Of a stretch of DNA of 47,808 nucleotides, positions 2,616 to 32,532 are shown one piece after another; the stretch's first letter is position 1, and every line of letters starts with the position of its first letter. Where the stretch lies: positions 1 to 47,808 of the forward strand of contig JAQBYC010000025.1 of assembly GCA_027623205.1 (NCBI GenBank). Direction: 5' to 3'. Below the pieces are notes generated by a model. The model saw nothing but the letters and a program-made list of their open reading frames with translations, did no database searches and had not been told where the DNA came from. Origin of the DNA: Pseudomonadota bacterium (GTDB lineage Bacteria > Pseudomonadota > Alphaproteobacteria > GCA-2731375). The translations under genes and the position numbers were made by a program.

Positions 2616-3593
2616 ATGAACAGACGGCAAATCTGGCTGACGCTGATCACTCTGACCCTGTTCGCCCTGGTGCCGCCACTGACGAGCATTTTCGGTCAAC
2701 CGTTCTATGTGGACCTGATGGCCCGGATCATGATCTTCGCCCTTGCCGCCATCAGCCTGGATTTTATTCTGGGCCACGGCGGCATGGTCAGTTTTGGTCA
2801 CGCCGCCTATATGGGCATTGGCGCCTATACGGTGGGTATTTTCAGCTATTACGGCATCGACAACGGCTTTATCCAGTTTCCCCTGGCGATCGCCGCCGCA
2901 GCCCTGATCGGACTGATCTTTGGCGCCTTGAGCCTGCGCACCTCCGGCGTCTATTTCATCATGATCACCCTGGCCTTTGCCCAGATGTTGTATTTTTTGG
3001 CAATCAGTCTGGAAGAATTCGGCGGTGACGACGGCATGGCCGCCTCACGCAGCAAGTTCGCCGGGCTGATCGATCTGAATGATTCGAACCAGTTTTACTA
3101 CCTGGTGTTGGCCTGTCTGGCCCTGATGCTGTTCATCCTGCATCGGCTGGTTCAATCCCGCTTTGGCATGGTGATCCGCGCCTGCCGAACCAATGAAAAA
3201 CGCATGCAGGCCCTGGGTTTTCAGACCTATCGCTACAAATTGACCGCCTTTGTCATTGCCGCCAGCATGTGCGGCCTGTCGGGCGCCCTATTTGCCAATT
3301 TGAACGAGTTTGTCTCTCCGGATGCGATGCATTGGACCCGTTCGGGCGAGATCATGATCATGGTGATCATGGGCGGCATTGGCACCTTAATCGGGCCGGT
3401 TCTGGGCGCCACCGGGTTTTTGCTGTTGGAAGAATACCTGCCGGAATGGATGGAAATGTTCATGACCGATGCTGGCGAGCATTGGGCGATTGTCATGGGA
3501 CCCATCCTGATCGTCATTGTGTTGTTCGGCCGCGGTGGCATTCACGCCCTCTTTGCCCGAAAATGGCTTGCCAGAGGCAACGGTCATGGTTGA
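2616..3593 (+). CDS. livM: LivM-type ABC transporter permease
   Basis: A 325-residue polytopic membrane protein of the LivM family, the second permease of the importer. It has multiple hydrophobic helices and the family signature 'LDFILGHGGMVSFGHAAYMGIGAY' region near residues 46-70. A conserved 'GGIGTLIGPVLGA' loop lies in the C-terminal half and interacts with the ATPases in this family. It begins 8 nt after the LivH stop and its 3' end overlaps the LivG start by 8 nt, so translation of the subunits is coupled. Confidence 0.92.
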   Translation: MNRRQIWLTLITLTLFALVPPLTSIFGQPFYVDLMARIMIFALAAISLDFILGHGGMVSFGHAAYMGIGAYTVGIFSYYGIDNGFIQFPLAIAAAALIGLIFGALSLRTSGVYFIMITLAFAQMLYFLAISLEEFGGDDGMAASRSKFAGLIDLNDSNQFYYLVLACLALMLFILHRLVQSRFGMVIRACRTNEKRMQALGFQTYRYKLTAFVIAASMCGLSGALFANLNEFVSPDAMHWTRSGEIMIMVIMGGIGTLIGPVLGATGFLLLEEYLPEWMEMFMTDAGEHWAIVMGPILIVIVLFGRGGIHALFARKWLARGNGHG

Positions 3594-5110: not shown

Positions 5111-5821
5111 ATGACCGACCAACCCCTGAACGAGACTGAACTGGCGGCTCTGCGCGCCTGGGACACGCCGACTATTTGTAACGCTCTGGAAATCACCTCG
5201 CCGGAACGCCGGGCCATTGGTTTTACCGTCGAACCCCTGGTCTGCGCCTTTCCTGACCTGCCCCCCATGGTCGGCTACGCCCGCACCGCCAACATTCGCG
5301 CCGCCGAACCCTCCAGCCGCCCGGCGGCGGAAATGCGCGACCAACGTCTGAGCTATTACCGCTATGTGGCGGACGGTATCGGCCCGACGATCTCGGTCAT
5401 TCAGGATATGGATGGCCCGAAGCGTGGCTGCGGCGCCTTTTGGGGTGAAGTCAATTCCACCATCCATCATGCCCTGGGTTGCCTGGGCACCATTACCGAC
5501 GGCTCGGTCCGTGACCTTGACGCCGTGGCGCCGGGTTTTCAGTTCATCGCCGATCGTATCGGGCCGTCCCATGCCCATGTACATCTGGAGGATTTCGGCA
5601 AGACCGTCAATGTGGCCGGCATGCTGGTCAACTCCGGCGATCTGGTCCACGCCGACCGTCACGGCGCCGTGGTCATTCCCCACGCCGTCGCCCGCCTCGT
5701 GGCGGATGCCTGCAAACTGTTGGAACGCCGGGAAGCCGTCATCCTGGAAGCCTGTCGCCAGCCGGGCTTCGACGTCGAAGCCCTGGGCCGCGCCATGGCG
5801 GATTCAAACGAGATACATTAG
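5111..5821 (+). CDS. RraA-like / HMG-CHA aldolase-family protein
   Basis: This 236-residue protein belongs to the RraA-like family, which includes 4-hydroxy-4-methyl-2-oxoglutarate/oxaloacetate aldolases and regulators of RNase E. The diagnostic core 'GAFWGEVNSTIHHALGCLG' followed by 'TDGSVRDLD' near residues 113-140 contains the glycine-rich loop and the Arg-Asp pair that binds substrate and metal in the aldolases. It follows the transporter ATPase by 36 nt on the same strand, so it is probably co-transcribed. The placement suggests it acts on the imported compound or its breakdown product. Substrate is not determinable, and family names are often misassigned as 'dimethylmenaquinone methyltransferase'. 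Confidence 0.82.
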   Translation: MTDQPLNETELAALRAWDTPTICNALEITSPERRAIGFTVEPLVCAFPDLPPMVGYARTANIRAAEPSSRPAAEMRDQRLSYYRYVADGIGPTISVIQDMDGPKRGCGAFWGEVNSTIHHALGCLGTITDGSVRDLDAVAPGFQFIADRIGPSHAHVHLEDFGKTVNVAGMLVNSGDLVHADRHGAVVIPHAVARLVADACKLLERREAVILEACRQPGFDVEALGRAMADSNEIH

Positions 5822-5886: not shown

Positions 5887-7977
5887 TTAAGCGGCTTGCA
5901 GACTGGCGAAGTTTTTACCTTCAGCAACCAGTTTTTCCAGCAACGGCGCCGGGCGCCAGCGTTCGCCGAATTCGGCATGGAAACGCTTGATATCAGCCAG
6001 GACATTCTCCAACCCAATGGCATCCGCCCAAGCCATCGGTCCGCCGCGATAGGCCGGGAAACCATAGCCGTTGATATAGATGATATCGATATCCGAGGGC
6101 CGCATCGCCATGCCTTCGGCCAGGATCTGCGCCCCAATGTTGATCAGCGGATACAGGCAGCGCTTGACGATGTCTTCCTCGGAAAACTCCCGCCGCGCGA
6201 TGTTTTTCTCTTTCGAGACCTGTTCGATGATCCCCTGCACCTCCGGATTGGGGATCGGCGTGCGGTCACCTTCCTTGTAGTCATAGTAGCCGCCGGCGGT
6301 TTTTTGTCCGAAGCGGCCCAACTCGCAGATACGGTCGGGAATCGTGCCGCCATATTCCTCGTTGGTTGGGCGGTCGGCGGCGCGCGCCTTGCGCACCAGC
6401 CAGCCCACATCCAGGCCGGCCATGTCGCCCATGGCAAAGGGACCCATGGGCAAGCCAAAATCAAAGATTGCCTTGTCCACCTGCTGTGGCAGGGCGCCAT
6501 TTTCCAGTAGGAACGTGCCTTCGCCGGTGTAGCCGTGCAGCATGCGATTGCCGACAAAGCCAAAGCAGTTGCCCACCAGAACGGAAATCTTGCCAACCTT
6601 GCGGCCAATGCCCATGGCGGTGGCGATGGTTTCGGGCGATGACTTGGCGCCCCGCACCACTTCCAACAGGCGCATGACGTTGGCGGGCGAGAAGAAATGC
6701 ATGCCGATCACGCTTTCGGGCCGCTTGGTGGCCGAGGCGATCTCGTCAATACTCAAGGTCGAGGTGTTGGAGGCCAGGATGGCGCCGGGTTTCATCACGC
6801 CGTCCAACTTGGCGAAGATTTCCTTTTTCAGTTCCATCTTCTCGAACACCGCCTCAATCACCAGATCCGCATCACCGATATCGGCTAAATCCGTGGTCGA
6901 GGAAAACAGCGCCATGCGCTGGTCCATTTTGGCCTGGGACAACCCACCCTTGTTCACCGTATTCTGGTAATTGCGCTGGATGATGCCCATGCCCTTGTCC
7001 AGGTTTTCCTGGGTCACTTCCAGCATTATCACCGGAATACCCGCATTGGCAAAGTTCATGGCGATACCGCCGCCCATGGTGCCCGCACCGATCATGGCGA
7101 CTTTCTTGATGTCCTTCATAGGCGTATCTTTGGGCACATCGGGAATTTTGGCTACTTCACGTTCGGCGAAGAAAACATGCCGTTGGGCGGCTGATTCCGG
7201 CGAGGTCACGCATTCCATGAACAAGGCCCGCTCCCGCGCGATGCCCTCATCGAAGGACAGGGTCGTCGCCGCTTCGACACAATCAATGCATTTCCATGGC
7301 GCCAGGAAGCCGCGGAACTTCCGCGCATTGGCCTTGCGATAGGTATCGAACAGCCCCGCATCCGCCTCGCAGGGGATATCGCGGATCTTGCGCAAAGGCG
7401 CATTTTCCGCCACCAACGTTTCGGCAAACGCAACCGCGCCCGCCAGTAAATCGTCGCCAACCTCGTCCACGATGCCCATTTCCTTGGCCTGCGGCGCCGG
7501 CACGAAGGCGCCGGAGGTGATCAGATCCAGAGCTTTTTCCGCGCCCACCAGACGGGGCAGTCTTTGGGTGCCGCCGGCGCCGGGTAACAGGCCCAGTTTC
7601 ACTTCCGGCAGACCCACCAGGGCCGCAGGCACGGCAAAGCGGTAATGGCAGCACAGCGCCGTTTCCAAACCGCCACCAAGGGCGGTGCCATGGATCGCGG
7701 CAACGATCAGTTTGGTGCTGTTTTCCATTGCCAACAAAACCTCGTGGAACGGCTTGCCCTTGGGCGGCTGGCCGAATTCACGGATATCGGCGCCGGCAAT
7801 GAAGGTGCGGCCGCCGCCCAGCAAAACCATGGCCTTCACATCCGGGTCCGCCTGGCCTTTGTCAAAAGCCGCGCCCAGACCATCGCGGACCGCGGCACTT
7901 AAGGCGTTGACCGGCGGGCTGTTGACCGTGATGACGCCGATGGCGCCTTGTTTCGTGAAATCAACCGCGTCTGACAT
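5887..7977 (-). CDS. Bifunctional enoyl-CoA hydratase / 3-hydroxyacyl-CoA dehydrogenase (FadB/FadJ type)
   Basis: A 696-residue multifunctional beta-oxidation enzyme. The N-terminal crotonase domain (about residues 1-190) has 'GTALGGGLETALCCHYRFA' and 'PEVKLGLLPGAGGTQRLPR', which supply the oxyanion hole and catalytic glutamates. The 3-hydroxyacyl-CoA dehydrogenase part starts near residue 290 with the NAD loop GAGTMGGGIAMNFA and contains the catalytic histidine in 'IGMHFFSPAN'. The C-terminal helical domain is present. ATG 7977 is preferred because AGGAG lies 9 nt upstream; an in-frame TTG at 7983 is less likely. It hydrates enoyl-CoA and oxidises 3-hydroxyacyl-CoA. No thiolase is adjacent. 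Confidence 0.93.
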   Translation of the reverse strand: MSDAVDFTKQGAIGVITVNSPPVNALSAAVRDGLGAAFDKGQADPDVKAMVLLGGGRTFIAGADIREFGQPPKGKPFHEVLLAMENSTKLIVAAIHGTALGGGLETALCCHYRFAVPAALVGLPEVKLGLLPGAGGTQRLPRLVGAEKALDLITSGAFVPAPQAKEMGIVDEVGDDLLAGAVAFAETLVAENAPLRKIRDIPCEADAGLFDTYRKANARKFRGFLAPWKCIDCVEAATTLSFDEGIARERALFMECVTSPESAAQRHVFFAEREVAKIPDVPKDTPMKDIKKVAMIGAGTMGGGIAMNFANAGIPVIMLEVTQENLDKGMGIIQRNYQNTVNKGGLSQAKMDQRMALFSSTTDLADIGDADLVIEAVFEKMELKKEIFAKLDGVMKPGAILASNTSTLSIDEIASATKRPESVIGMHFFSPANVMRLLEVVRGAKSSPETIATAMGIGRKVGKISVLVGNCFGFVGNRMLHGYTGEGTFLLENGALPQQVDKAIFDFGLPMGPFAMGDMAGLDVGWLVRKARAADRPTNEEYGGTIPDRICELGRFGQKTAGGYYDYKEGDRTPIPNPEVQGIIEQVSKEKNIARREFSEEDIVKRCLYPLINIGAQILAEGMAMRPSDIDIIYINGYGFPAYRGGPMAWADAIGLENVLADIKRFHAEFGERWRPAPLLEKLVAEGKNFASLQAA

Positions 7978-11189: not shown

Positions 11190-12548
11190 TCAAGCGCCAA
11201 GCGCTGCCGCCATGCCGCGGGCGCGGGCGGCTTGCGCCTCGGCAAGCTGGCGGCACAGGCCGGTATAGCGGGTCGGGTCGAGCATGCCCTCGATCTGGTC
11301 TCTCGAGAGGTGCCGGTTGAAGCGCGCGTCCGCCGCGAGCAGATCACTGAAGCTTCCTTCGCCCCTGGCTGCCGCCTGCGCCGCGTCATAAACGATGTCG
11401 TGCGCCTCCTGACGTCCCACATGTTCGCCCAGCGCCAGCATGACCGGTTCGGCCATGATCAGTCCCTCGGTGAGGTCCAGATTGGCGCGCATGCGCGCGG
11501 GCTTCAGGACAAGACCCTCGGCGAGAATTCGAACCCGCTCGAGCGTATCGCCCAAAAGTACGCAGACCTGATTTTGCGCATACCGCATCATCAGGGATGT
11601 CTGCCGGTTCGCTTCGTGCTCCGTCATCACGGTCTCAAGCGCCAGCGGCACCATGGTCCGGATTTGCGCCGCATAGGCCATGATATCCTGGGAGAGATGG
11701 GGGTTTCGCTTCTGCGGCATGGTGCTGCTGCCCACCGTGCCCGGGAAAATCGGCTCCTCGACCTCGCCGAATTCCTGCTTCATGCCGGTGTAAATCTCAT
11801 TGGCGAATTTCCCGCAACTCGCCGCCAACAGTGCCAGCAGCATGATGTGTTCGGCAAGGTGATCCATGATGCTGCGCGCGGGAACCGGCATCGGCGGCAT
11901 GTCGAGATGGGCGGCCATCCGCGCCTGTACTTCCAGGCCCCGGTCACCGAACGAGGCGACGGTCCCGGCGCCGCCGCCCAGCAATGCCCTGAAGACACGC
12001 GGCTCGCACTCCGTAAGACGCTCCACGTGCCGGGCGAATTCATCGATCCAGATCGCAACCTTAAGCCCGTATGTCGCGGGTACCGCGTGCTGTCCGTGCG
12101 TGCGGCCCGGCAGCGCCATGTCTTTCGACCTTTCGGCAAGATCGGCCAGGGCGGCGAAAACCGCGCCAAGCTGGCGCAAGAAAATCCGATGCGCCCTGCG
12201 CAGTTGCAGCAGGTCCCCGGTCTGTGTGATGTTCTGCGTGGTGGCGCCCCAGTGCACATAGTTGCCAGCGTCACCATCGCAGAGACGCGACAATTCCCAG
12301 ACCAGCGGCACCAGGGTGTGTCCGGTGCGGTGAAAAGCCTCGGCAAGACGCTCCCGGTCGAACAACGAAAGATCGCACTTGCGGACGATTTCGTCCGCCG
12401 CCTCCGCTGGTATCATGCCGAGCTCGGCCTCCGCTTTCGCGAGCGCCGCCTCTACATCCAGCCAGGCCTGCCAGCGGGCATCCTGCGCGAACAGTGCCGC
12501 GACACCCGGATCGGGAACACGCAATGATGTCGGATTACCCTGCTGCAT
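11190..12548 (-). CDS. Fumarase/aspartase-superfamily lyase (PcaB / adenylosuccinate lyase-like)
   Basis: A 452-residue member of the superfamily containing adenylosuccinate lyase and 3-carboxy-cis,cis-muconate cycloisomerase. The signature loop GSSTMPQKRNP is at residues 273-283. 'VHWGATTQNITQT' near residue 98 and 'RTHGQHAVPATYG' near residue 149 form the other conserved regions, including the histidine at 151. ATG 12548 is preferred, with GGGGAG upstream, over an upstream in-frame start at 12641. Its location in a catabolic island rather than near purine genes favours a PcaB-like or substituted-succinate lyase role over purine synthesis. The exact substrate is unknown. Confidence 0.85.
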   Translation of the reverse strand: MQQGNPTSLRVPDPGVAALFAQDARWQAWLDVEAALAKAEAELGMIPAEAADEIVRKCDLSLFDRERLAEAFHRTGHTLVPLVWELSRLCDGDAGNYVHWGATTQNITQTGDLLQLRRAHRIFLRQLGAVFAALADLAERSKDMALPGRTHGQHAVPATYGLKVAIWIDEFARHVERLTECEPRVFRALLGGGAGTVASFGDRGLEVQARMAAHLDMPPMPVPARSIMDHLAEHIMLLALLAASCGKFANEIYTGMKQEFGEVEEPIFPGTVGSSTMPQKRNPHLSQDIMAYAAQIRTMVPLALETVMTEHEANRQTSLMMRYAQNQVCVLLGDTLERVRILAEGLVLKPARMRANLDLTEGLIMAEPVMLALGEHVGRQEAHDIVYDAAQAAARGEGSFSDLLAADARFNRHLSRDQIEGMLDPTRYTGLCRQLAEAQAARARGMAAALGA

Positions 12549-12586
12549 GATGTCCGCTCCCCGTCTTTGAATGCAATACACGATTG

Positions 12587-12598
12587 ATTGTGCACACT
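12587..12598. promoter_or_regulatory. Near-perfect palindrome upstream of the lyase gene
   Basis: ATTGTGCACACT is a 12-bp palindrome with one mismatch, centred about 45 bp upstream of the lyase start. Its form suits a dimeric repressor such as a GntR-type regulator. No regulator gene is adjacent. Confidence 0.35.
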
Positions 12599-12651
12599 CA
12601 CCCGCGGCGATGATAGTTAAACCGGTCGGAATTGGCCGCAATTGGGGATAG

Positions 12652-12667
12652 AATGGTCATGACCATT
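12652..12667. promoter_or_regulatory. Perfect 16-bp palindrome, candidate operator
   Basis: AATGGTCATGACCATT is a perfect palindrome in the divergent region between the lyase and LLM oxidoreductase genes. The TGGT...ACCA form is common in FadR/VanR-subfamily GntR operators. It lies about 26 bp upstream of the candidate -35 box of the LLM promoter. Confidence 0.55.
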
Positions 12668-12692
12668 GGTATGAATTTGAACTGAAACGCCG

Positions 12693-12728
12693 ATGACCCC
12701 TGACAACGCAAGGCGGTATAATCCGCCT
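12693..12728 (+). promoter_or_regulatory. Candidate promoter with TATAAT inside a palindrome
   Basis: A perfect -10 box TATAAT (12717-12722) is flanked by 6-bp inverted arms AGGCGG (12711-12716) and CCGCCT (12723-12728). A moderate -35 box ATGACC (12693-12698) lies 18 nt upstream. A repressor on this palindrome would block RNA polymerase directly. Transcription would start near 12730, giving a leader of about 28 nt for the LLM gene. Confidence 0.55.
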
Positions 12729-12757
12729 GTAACATTCGGCTGTGGAGGATCCTCGTC

Positions 12758-13654
12758 ATGAGGGCCGGCTTTGGTATTCCCAATAATCAGGGCGTTGAAA
12801 ATCCTAACGATCTTGTCGGACTGGCGGTTACGGCGGAGCAATTGGGGTTTTCCAGCGTCTGGGTCCGAGAGCATCTTTTTCACGCCACTTATGTGGCGGA
12901 ACGGCTTGGCGACAAGCCCTATCATGACGCCTTGACGATATTGACCGCCATCGCCTGCGCCACCAAATCGGTACGGCTGGGCACGTCGGTGCTGGTATTG
13001 CCCTGGCACGATCCGGCGCGGCTGGGCAAGATGATCGCCACTTTGGATCAGCTCTCGGGCGGGCGGGTGGATTTGGGCGTTGGCGTGGCGACCACACGCG
13101 ATGAGTTCGAGAATCTGGGCGTTGATTTCGCCACGCGCGGCAAACGCACGGATGAGATACTGGGCGCATTGCAAGCGCTGTGGACCCAGGACACGCCGCA
13201 GTTTACAGGCGAATTTTACCGCTACGGCGGCTTGAAATTTTCACCAAAACCATTGCAGACCCCCTACCCGCCGCTGTTGATCGGCGGCTCAAGTGCCGCC
13301 GCCCGCCGCCGCGTGGCGCGTTTTGGCGATGGCTGGCATACCCTGCGGCAATCACCAAACCAGTTCGCGGAAGGCCGGCGGGATATCATCCGGCTGACCG
13401 AGGCGGCGGGCCGGGATCCGGCGGTGCTACGCTATTCCCTGACCCTGCCCATGCGCTTTACCGGCACGCCGCCCGGCGCACCGGTGCAGGACCGCACCGC
13501 CCTGACGGGCACGGACGACGACATCATCGAAACCCTCAGGGCCTATCGTTCGGCGGGGCTGGATGAAATTGTCGTCAGCGTCAGCAGCGCCGATGTAAAC
13601 TGCAACAGCGATGCCATGGCCCGGTTCATGCAACAGGTCTGGCCCAAGCTGTAA
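12758..13654 (+). CDS. LLM-class flavin-dependent oxidoreductase
   Basis: A 298-residue TIM-barrel oxidoreductase of the luciferase-like monooxygenase superfamily. It matches the pattern of the 'probable F420-dependent oxidoreductase' subgroup, with 'AEQLGFSSVWVREHLF' near residue 27-42, 'VRLGTSVLVLPWHDPARLGK' near residue 72-90 and 'LDQLSGGRVDLGVGVATTRDE' following. In proteobacteria these usually use reduced FMN supplied by a partner, but F420 use cannot be excluded. A GGAGGA Shine-Dalgarno lies about 9 nt upstream. It leads an operon-like run with the TauD-type dioxygenase 30 nt downstream. Confidence 0.88.
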   Translation: MRAGFGIPNNQGVENPNDLVGLAVTAEQLGFSSVWVREHLFHATYVAERLGDKPYHDALTILTAIACATKSVRLGTSVLVLPWHDPARLGKMIATLDQLSGGRVDLGVGVATTRDEFENLGVDFATRGKRTDEILGALQALWTQDTPQFTGEFYRYGGLKFSPKPLQTPYPPLLIGGSSAAARRRVARFGDGWHTLRQSPNQFAEGRRDIIRLTEAAGRDPAVLRYSLTLPMRFTGTPPGAPVQDRTALTGTDDDIIETLRAYRSAGLDEIVVSVSSADVNCNSDAMARFMQQVWPKL

Positions 13655-31087: not shown

Positions 31088-32494
31088 TCACCGTCCCACG
31101 TCGATGCCGAATTCAGCCACCTTACGGTACAGGGTGGAGCGGCCAATGCCAAGGCGGCGGGCGACTTCAGTCATTTGCCCGTCATATTTATCGATTGCCA
31201 ATCGGATCATGTCCGCCTCCATGGCGCCCAAGGTCCGCACTTCGCCGGCCGCATCCAGCCCCGGCAGGGCGCCCATGCCCCCCCCATTTATGGCCATTGG
31301 CGTTGCCATGCCCATGCTCTGGGCGATTTGCGGGAAGTCCGCCAAATTCAGTTCGTCGCCATCGCACAGTACCACGGCCCGAAATATCGCATTTTCCAAC
31401 TGCCGTATATTGCCCGGCCAATCAAATCCCTCCAGCAGAGCCAGGGCATGTTCGGACAGCCCACGAACGGCCTTGCCCTCGGTGGCGGCAAGTTTGGCGA
31501 CGAAGTGGGCGGCCAGCGGGGCGATGTCTTCCTGGCGTTCACGTAAAGGCGGAATACTGATCGGAAAAACATTCAGCCGGTAATACAGATCTTCCCTGAA
31601 TTTTCCCTCGCTGACCTGTTGCTGCAAATTCCGATTGGTGGCCGAAATCAGACGGATATCCACCCGCACCGGGGCGCGGGCACCGACCGGGTCAACCTCG
31701 CCTTCCTGTATGGCCCGCAACAATTTGACCTGCATATCCTGGCGCAATTCGCCGATCTCGTCCAAAAACAAGGTGCCGCCGTCGGCTTCCTGGAATTTGC
31801 CGGCGTGACGTTCGTTGGCGCCGGTGAAGGCGCCTTTCTCATGGCCGAAGAGGATGCTTTCAACCAGATTTTCCGGGATGGCGCCGCAGTTCACCGCCAC
31901 GAAGGCTTTGCCGGACCGCTCGCCCGACCCCTGAACGGCGCGGGCGATCATCTCCTTGCCGACGCCGCTTTCGCCTTCAATCAGAATTGGGATGTTCGAT
32001 GACGCAGCCCGGCGGGCCAGGTCCAGGACGGCAGTCATGGCGTCGCTACGACCGACCAGATCGTCAAATTGCATGCGCCCATCAACCTGCCGGGTCAGGC
32101 GCGAGACCTGGCCGGACAGTAGGTTCATCTTCAGGGCATTCTCCATTGATACCAGCAATCGTTCCGGGCTGGCCGGCTTGGGGATGAAGTCCGCTGCGCC
32201 GGCCTGCATTACCTTGACGATGACGTCGATGCCACTTTGGGCCGTCAGCACGATCACCGGCAGATCCGGTCGCCGCGGCTTGACCTGCTGCAAAACCGCA
32301 AACCCGTCCACCTCCGGCATCACCAAATCCAGCAGGATCAGGTCGATGCCATTGCTCTCTTCGGATTTCATGAATGCCACGGCGTCCTGGCCACCCTTGG
32401 CCACGGCCACATCATAGCCGTGCCGGCTGACCACGGCTTCCAACAGACGCCGCTGGGTAGGATCATCATCGACAATCAACACTGTTTGCGCCAT
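31088..32494 (-). CDS. Sigma-54-dependent NtrC-family response regulator
   Basis: A 468-residue transcription factor. An N-terminal receiver domain (about 1-118) has the acidic pocket D9-D11, phospho-acceptor D56 in 'LLDLVMP' and the K of 'PKP'. The AAA+ domain (about 140-370) has Walker A GESGVGKE and the sigma-54 contact loop GAFTGA in 'HEKGAFTGANERH'. A Fis-type helix-turn-helix ('MTEVARRLGIGRSTLYRKVAEFG') ends the protein. ATG 32494 has TTGAGGG upstream; TTG 32503 is less likely. No sensor kinase is adjacent. It lies 115 nt upstream of the fused ferredoxin oxidoreductase gene on the same strand. Confidence 0.92.
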   Translation of the reverse strand: MAQTVLIVDDDPTQRRLLEAVVSRHGYDVAVAKGGQDAVAFMKSEESNGIDLILLDLVMPEVDGFAVLQQVKPRRPDLPVIVLTAQSGIDVIVKVMQAGAADFIPKPASPERLLVSMENALKMNLLSGQVSRLTRQVDGRMQFDDLVGRSDAMTAVLDLARRAASSNIPILIEGESGVGKEMIARAVQGSGERSGKAFVAVNCGAIPENLVESILFGHEKGAFTGANERHAGKFQEADGGTLFLDEIGELRQDMQVKLLRAIQEGEVDPVGARAPVRVDIRLISATNRNLQQQVSEGKFREDLYYRLNVFPISIPPLRERQEDIAPLAAHFVAKLAATEGKAVRGLSEHALALLEGFDWPGNIRQLENAIFRAVVLCDGDELNLADFPQIAQSMGMATPMAINGGGMGALPGLDAAGEVRTLGAMEADMIRLAIDKYDGQMTEVARRLGIGRSTLYRKVAEFGIDVGR

Positions 32495-32532
32495 TGCCCT
32501 CAATCCAGTCGCTTATTATTTATGATGCACGT

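Follow-up and report, generated by a model that had tools for sequence, protein, structure and literature searches.

The locus and its two divergent genes

The window analysed here is a whole contig of 47808 bases (C56) from a draft genome of 5.02 Mb in 228 contigs, estimated to be 96.94% complete. In it, a gap of 209 bp (12549-12757) separates a lyase gene on the minus strand from an LLM-class (luciferase-like) oxidoreductase gene on the plus strand, and this divergent layout is real. The first-pass annotation had read the gap as a control region carrying three palindromes, and all three sequences are indeed found in it, at 12587-12598, 12652-12667 and 12711-12728. The features of the locus are the following:

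11190-12548, minus strand: lyase gene, 452 aa, with Lyase_1 and ADSL_C domains (Pfam), fumarase/aspartase superfamily
12557-12562, minus strand: ribosome-binding-site-like GGGGAG of the lyase gene, read from the sequence
12586-12598, minus strand: conserved lyase element AGTGTGCACAATC, with its core GTGCACAAT at 12587-12595, overlapping the 12-bp palindrome
12587-12598: 12-bp palindrome ATTGTGCACACT, one mismatched pair
12612-12616, minus strand: CTATC box preceding GTGCACAAT by exactly 16 nt, a possible -10 box of the lyase gene
12652-12667: perfect 16-bp palindrome AATGGTCATGACCATT, not conserved
12693-12722, plus strand: candidate sigma-70-like LLM promoter (ATGACC, 18 nt, TATAAT at 12717-12722)
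12711-12728: 6-bp inverted arms AGGCGG/CCGCCT around TATAAT, at chance level and not conserved
12758-13654, plus strand: LLM oxidoreductase gene, ATG at 12758

The start of the lyase at 12548 is backed by homologues that begin with MQQ or MEQ and by the GGGAG site, which is present in six of the seven aligned lyase leaders, the seventh (G002) having AGGAG. The possibility that the lyase is longer at its N-terminus, with coding sequence running across the conserved element, was considered and rejected: the open reading frame of the window reaches 12641 by way of a TTG, and the corresponding extension in G005 is only 7 aa long. The closest solved structures in the PDB are a fumarate lyase (3c8t), trans-aconitate decarboxylase and 3-carboxy-cis,cis-muconate cycloisomerase; the protein matched 16 NCBIfam families and reached the cut-off of none, and therefore no substrate was assigned. 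The LLM protein scores above the cut-off of TIGR03619 and passes no other among the best 25 of 32 families. Its gene, preceded by a ribosome-binding site (GGAGG, 12744-12748), heads a same-strand run of TauD, DHDPS-like, 2-hydroxyacid dehydrogenase, CMD and SDR genes.

The 10 proteins scanned around the site include no DNA-binding regulator, and the sole one among 9 further proteins of the window is a sigma-54-type response regulator about 18 kb away (31091-32503). Within these two sets the earlier remark that no regulator gene adjoins the gap is borne out.

Palindromes in the gap and the GntR question

Chance levels were taken from dinucleotide shuffles of the gap. The perfect 16-bp palindrome arose in 73 of 20000 shuffles and is the only one of the three features rarer than chance. 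Palindromes of 12 bp with no more than one mismatched pair turn up in 64% of the 3000 shuffles drawn (1.04 on average), and the gap itself holds four, one of them lying within the 16-mer. Inverted 6-bp arms separated by 0-10 nt occur in 39% of 3000 shuffles. In the whole window two perfect 16-bp palindromes are present where 60 shuffles gave 1.58 on average, and meeting one somewhere in 47.8 kb is therefore unsurprising. The second, GCTTCGACGTCGAAGC, lies at 5766-5781, inside an RraA-like gene.

The 16-bp palindrome could be the operator of a ligand-responsive GntR/HutC-like repressor acting on both genes, a reading that we consider very unlikely. Apart from its rarity in shuffles and its position between the two starts, its resemblance to known sites speaks in its favour. 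Operators of the HutC subfamily have 4 nt between GT and AC and the core GTMTAKAC (PMC4494728), and the dre site of DasR is A(G/C)TGGTCTAGACCA(G/C)T (PMC4398421); the palindrome shares with them the length of 16 bp, the TGGTC/GACCA arms and the 4-nt GT-AC distance. However, in those sites the centre is TA, whereas the core GTCATGAC has AT and does not conform to GTMTAKAC, and the 16-mer is a single unconserved copy in a genome with no match to the UTRA (HutC effector) domain. Operators of the FadR subfamily (PMC4494728) also carry GT/AC boxes within a palindrome, with the core GTM-N0-1-KAC and a GT-AC distance of 2-3 nt. The 16-mer departs from this rule in having 4 nt between GT and AC and N2 between M and K; the 2 nt of the 12-mer fit, but in its core GTGCAC the GT is followed by G instead of A/C.

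Loose matches also seem to favour such an operator: at up to three mismatches the 16-mer has 34 places against 7 for the backward pattern, and WTGGTCNNGACCAW at up to one mismatch has 120 against 29 for the backward control. Of these 120, however, 10 TGGTCNNGACCA places were fetched, and nine lie in open reading frames while the tenth is the 12652-12667 site itself; we therefore put the excess down to coding-sequence composition, and a regulon of the 16-mer was rejected on that account. A further 14 16-mer-like loci (up to three mismatches) were fetched as well. The exact 16-mer is unique in the 5.02-Mb genome, and its nearest other match there, two mismatches away and among the loci fetched, is inside an open reading frame. 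The window has one more place at up to three mismatches (3455-3470, within a transporter gene), where 0.23 were expected by chance and two or more arose in one of 100 shuffles; the looser pattern TGGTN{2,6}ACCA occurs three times against 2.35 expected, which is chance level. Across 116 genomes, the 16-mer or a form with one mismatch at most is found in nine, the exact form solely in the source genome and the near forms at eight places in eight of the other 115, one of which is the genus member G004.

G002 is the sole other genome found with the same divergent pair. Its gap of 153 bp aligns poorly to that of the window and lacks the 16-mer, the GC arms and GTGCACAAT; it has a TGGT-N5-ACCA, a weak look-alike with a different spacing to which we gave no weight. 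The 130-bp LLM leaders of 15 relatives, G002 among them, contain no perfect palindrome of at least 12 bp, no GGCGG/CCGCC arms and no GTGCACAA; this set leaves out L042, with only 62 bases upstream, and the distant L013, L014 and L044. In a single case of the 15 (L041) the leader has in common with that of the window a 10-bp GAGGATCCTC at the ribosome-binding site. Recurrence, which the first-pass annotation had named as the check on its palindromes, speaks against two of them. A shared operator of the divergent pair finds no support in G002, and joint control of the lyase and the LLM operon finds none in the 15 leaders, which are devoid of the 16-mer, the GC arms and the lyase element. Most probably the 16-mer and the GC arms arose incidentally; at the very most they would be a peculiarity of this one species.

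A link to GntR-family genes had also been suggested, and it is unsupported. The UTRA domain has no match in the source genome, while 8 of 14 control genomes are positive; among nine other genus members searched (G010 left out) it is found in G003 only. The GntR model gives five matches in the source genome, four of them over the cut-off. Two are full-length domains, in proteins that appear by eye to be FadR-like and MocR-like, and neither is near the site; the remaining three resemble, again by eye, proteins of the Crp, Rrf2 and DeoR types. Control by a GntR/HutC regulator was ruled against on these grounds, namely the absence of a UTRA match and of a full-length GntR gene near the site. It is possible that a regulator was missed in a draft that is 96.94% complete.

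The only FadR-like GntR gene seen (L060) has a palindrome of its own, with a spacing different from that of the 16-mer. This perfect palindrome, AAATTGGTCTGACCAATTT, stands between the gene and a divergent open reading frame and is identical in the source genome (contig C109, L060 ~1811-1829) and in G002 (contig C123, L061 ~1367-1385); it is likely to be an autoregulatory operator of FadR type.

A conserved element upstream of the lyase gene

Orthologues of the LLM protein (77-87% identical) are present in nine of the ten other genus members searched, the best match in G010 being at 36%. Those of the lyase (84-92%) are present in eight of the ten and in neither G006 nor G009, so that nine of 11 genus members searched have the lyase; G012, of the same family, has an orthologue at 82%. 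The two genes are adjacent only in the source genome and G002, and both are present on different contigs in G001, G003, G004, G005, G007 and G008. The copy of G007 (C301:2343-3551, L080) has one internal TGA and its lyase match stops at residue 403 of 452, which indicates a truncated copy or an assembly error.

We read the regions upstream of ten lyase genes at least 82% identical, that of the window included; seven have a separate leader, while in G001, G012 and G007 the lyase seems, by eye, to lie directly behind other coding sequence. The word GTGCACAAT is identical in five of the seven leaders (the source genome, G010, G005, G004 and G008) and absent from those of G002, the closest in layout, and of G003. 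In the first four of these five it follows CTATC at the same spacing of 16 nt, G008 having TTTTC instead. Around it the leaders have diverged: between lineages, identity is 29-51% in the left flank and 10-43% in the right, and only the close pair G005/G004 reaches 80% on the left. Four lineages have a word of up to 9 nt in common, where 5000 shuffles gave at most 7, once; the leaders for this comparison were picked after the motif had been seen, and the figure measures its strength and is not a blind test. Conservation upstream of orthologues against diverged flanks, as expected of a lyase-specific cis element, was thus found in five of seven leaders. By the same evidence it is most improbable that the three palindromic features and the conserved 9-mer are all accidental leftovers of shared ancestry: two of the three features are at chance level, the genomes are few and the word is missing from two of the seven leaders, all of which would suit such an origin, but the 9-mer is invariant in five leaders while its flanks have fallen to 10-51% identity.

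The genes across the gap, named by eye from their translations, are the LLM gene in the source genome and in G002, a TauD-like gene in G010, a zinc-type dehydrogenase gene in G005 and G004, and another LLM gene in G008. Since the neighbour changes from genome to genome while the element travels with the lyase, and since the 15 LLM leaders are without it, we attribute the element to the lyase and see no fixed divergent pair behind it.

What the leaders share is approximately AGNGTGCACAATC(G), a word whose symmetry is limited to the GTGCAC core; with AGN on one side and AATC on the other, this asymmetry argues against a simple 12-bp dyad. The 12-mer palindrome is unremarkable alone but overlaps GTGCACAAT, the only element of the gap that comparison with relatives supports. 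The proposal that the gap is a control region finds support on the lyase side alone, where the word recurs, and none as regards a palindromic site. The palindrome that merits attention at this locus is thus an imperfect one, which overlaps a probable control element that is conserved; relatives lend no support to the most perfect of the three.

In longer form the element is nearly private to the lyase: RNGTGCACAATYG occurs at five places in five genomes, four of them lyase leaders, with none for the backward control, and the copy of the window, which ends in ATCAA, misfits its last two letters. The shorter AGNGTGCACAATC has one exact place and seven one-mismatch places in the source genome. 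Over ten genomes its exact form has four places, of which three are lyase leaders and the fourth falls within an open reading frame of G007; at up to one mismatch there are 55 against 12 for the backward control, which makes the loose form common. Thirty AGNGTGCACAATC loci were fetched: 24 lie inside a predicted open reading frame of at least 100 aa, a count that includes the window's own site owing to the TTG-extended frame, and three of the other six are lyase leaders. A search of 385 genomes of the class for distant lyases gave seven with a match, four of them new or outside the genus; the stretches fetched around the distant lyase loci of G376, G093, G207 and G141 (59-64% identical) contain neither GTGCACAA nor its complement.

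The string TTGTGCACA resembles a DnaA box; this candidate was dropped, the last base differing among relatives.

Two proposed promoters and a candidate operator

On the LLM side, the candidate promoter ATGACC-18-TATAAT scores 10 of 12 against sigma-70 hexamers 16-18 nt apart, and the scan that found it gave one site against a shuffle mean of 0.4. The -10 region aligns by eye with those of L041 and L045, and TATAAT is plausible as the -10 box of the LLM gene.

The interpretation that we favour, as probable on the sequence comparisons, is that two distinct promoters stand back to back in the gap, with an element particular to the lyase under an unlinked regulator on one side, the LLM gene using its own TATAAT on the other, and the 16-mer and GC arms incidental. 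The two sides would act independently: the LLM gene would be transcribed from its own -10 box, while the asymmetric AGNGTGCACAATC(G)-like element, whose distance from CTATC is constant, would be the putative site of an unlinked regulator of the lyase only. If CTATC is the -10 of the lyase, the element would fall just past the transcription start, and a repressor bound there, just downstream of CTATC, might block promoter escape or elongation, or tune transcription. In 82 leaders CTATC is no commoner than its reversed control (11 forward, 5 as reverse complement, 11 reversed), and its role as a -10 is therefore weak.

Alternatively, GTGCACAAT could be part of the core promoter, either as a -10-like CACAAT with CTATCA at 18 nt or as a start-site element, instead of an operator. 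We hold this to be rather unlikely: in its favour, the word keeps a constant 16-nt distance from CTATC in four leaders and from TTTTC in the fifth, but CTATCA and CACAAT are both poor sigma-70 hexamers against the consensus, the promoter scan finds no site on the lyase strand, and in the five genomes searched the 13-base form is found at hardly any place other than lyase leaders, unlike a general promoter word. The lyase element has a partial parallel in the KstR site, a conserved, promoter-overlapping site found by aligning leaders (PMC1995591); the lyase word is likewise conserved near a promoter against diverged flanks. The KstR site is symmetric, a palindrome whose regulator is known, whereas the lyase word is asymmetric. 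Among the four papers that a literature search on motif strings listed, none has a title pointing to such an operator. If the element is an operator, it offers a handle on the unlinked regulator, and hence on the substrate of this lyase of the fumarase superfamily.

A more specific version of the favoured reading, which we consider unlikely, is that AGNGTGCACAATC(G) would be the operator of a dedicated unlinked regulator with the lyase as its main or only target in the genus, that it followed the gene through several changes of neighbourhood, and that ATTGTGC-N8-GCACAAT would represent the complete site with both halves. This 22-bp dyad arises in G004 and G005 from an added left half, ATTGTGC, and may be the full form of the element; the other three leaders are without it. 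ATTGTGC-N-GCACAAT as a genus-wide operator was rejected: in a search of 15 genomes, G010-G014 not included, it has three places in G004, two in G005, three in G007 and one in G017, with none in controls, and only two of these are lyase leaders, the others having no common target besides an open reading frame that looks, by eye, ABC-transporter-like.

An ATTGTGC-N7-GCACAAT dyad stands at or near the start of a predicted open reading frame, ABC-transporter-like by eye, in G004 (contig C21, L112), G005 (contig C7, L109) and G007 (contig C351, L116), each time at 1501-1521 of the locus. In the lyase leader of G010 (contig C2, L099 ~6725-6742), a perfect hairpin, GACGCAA-GGAA-TTGCGTC, is seen by eye right after GTGCACAATC.
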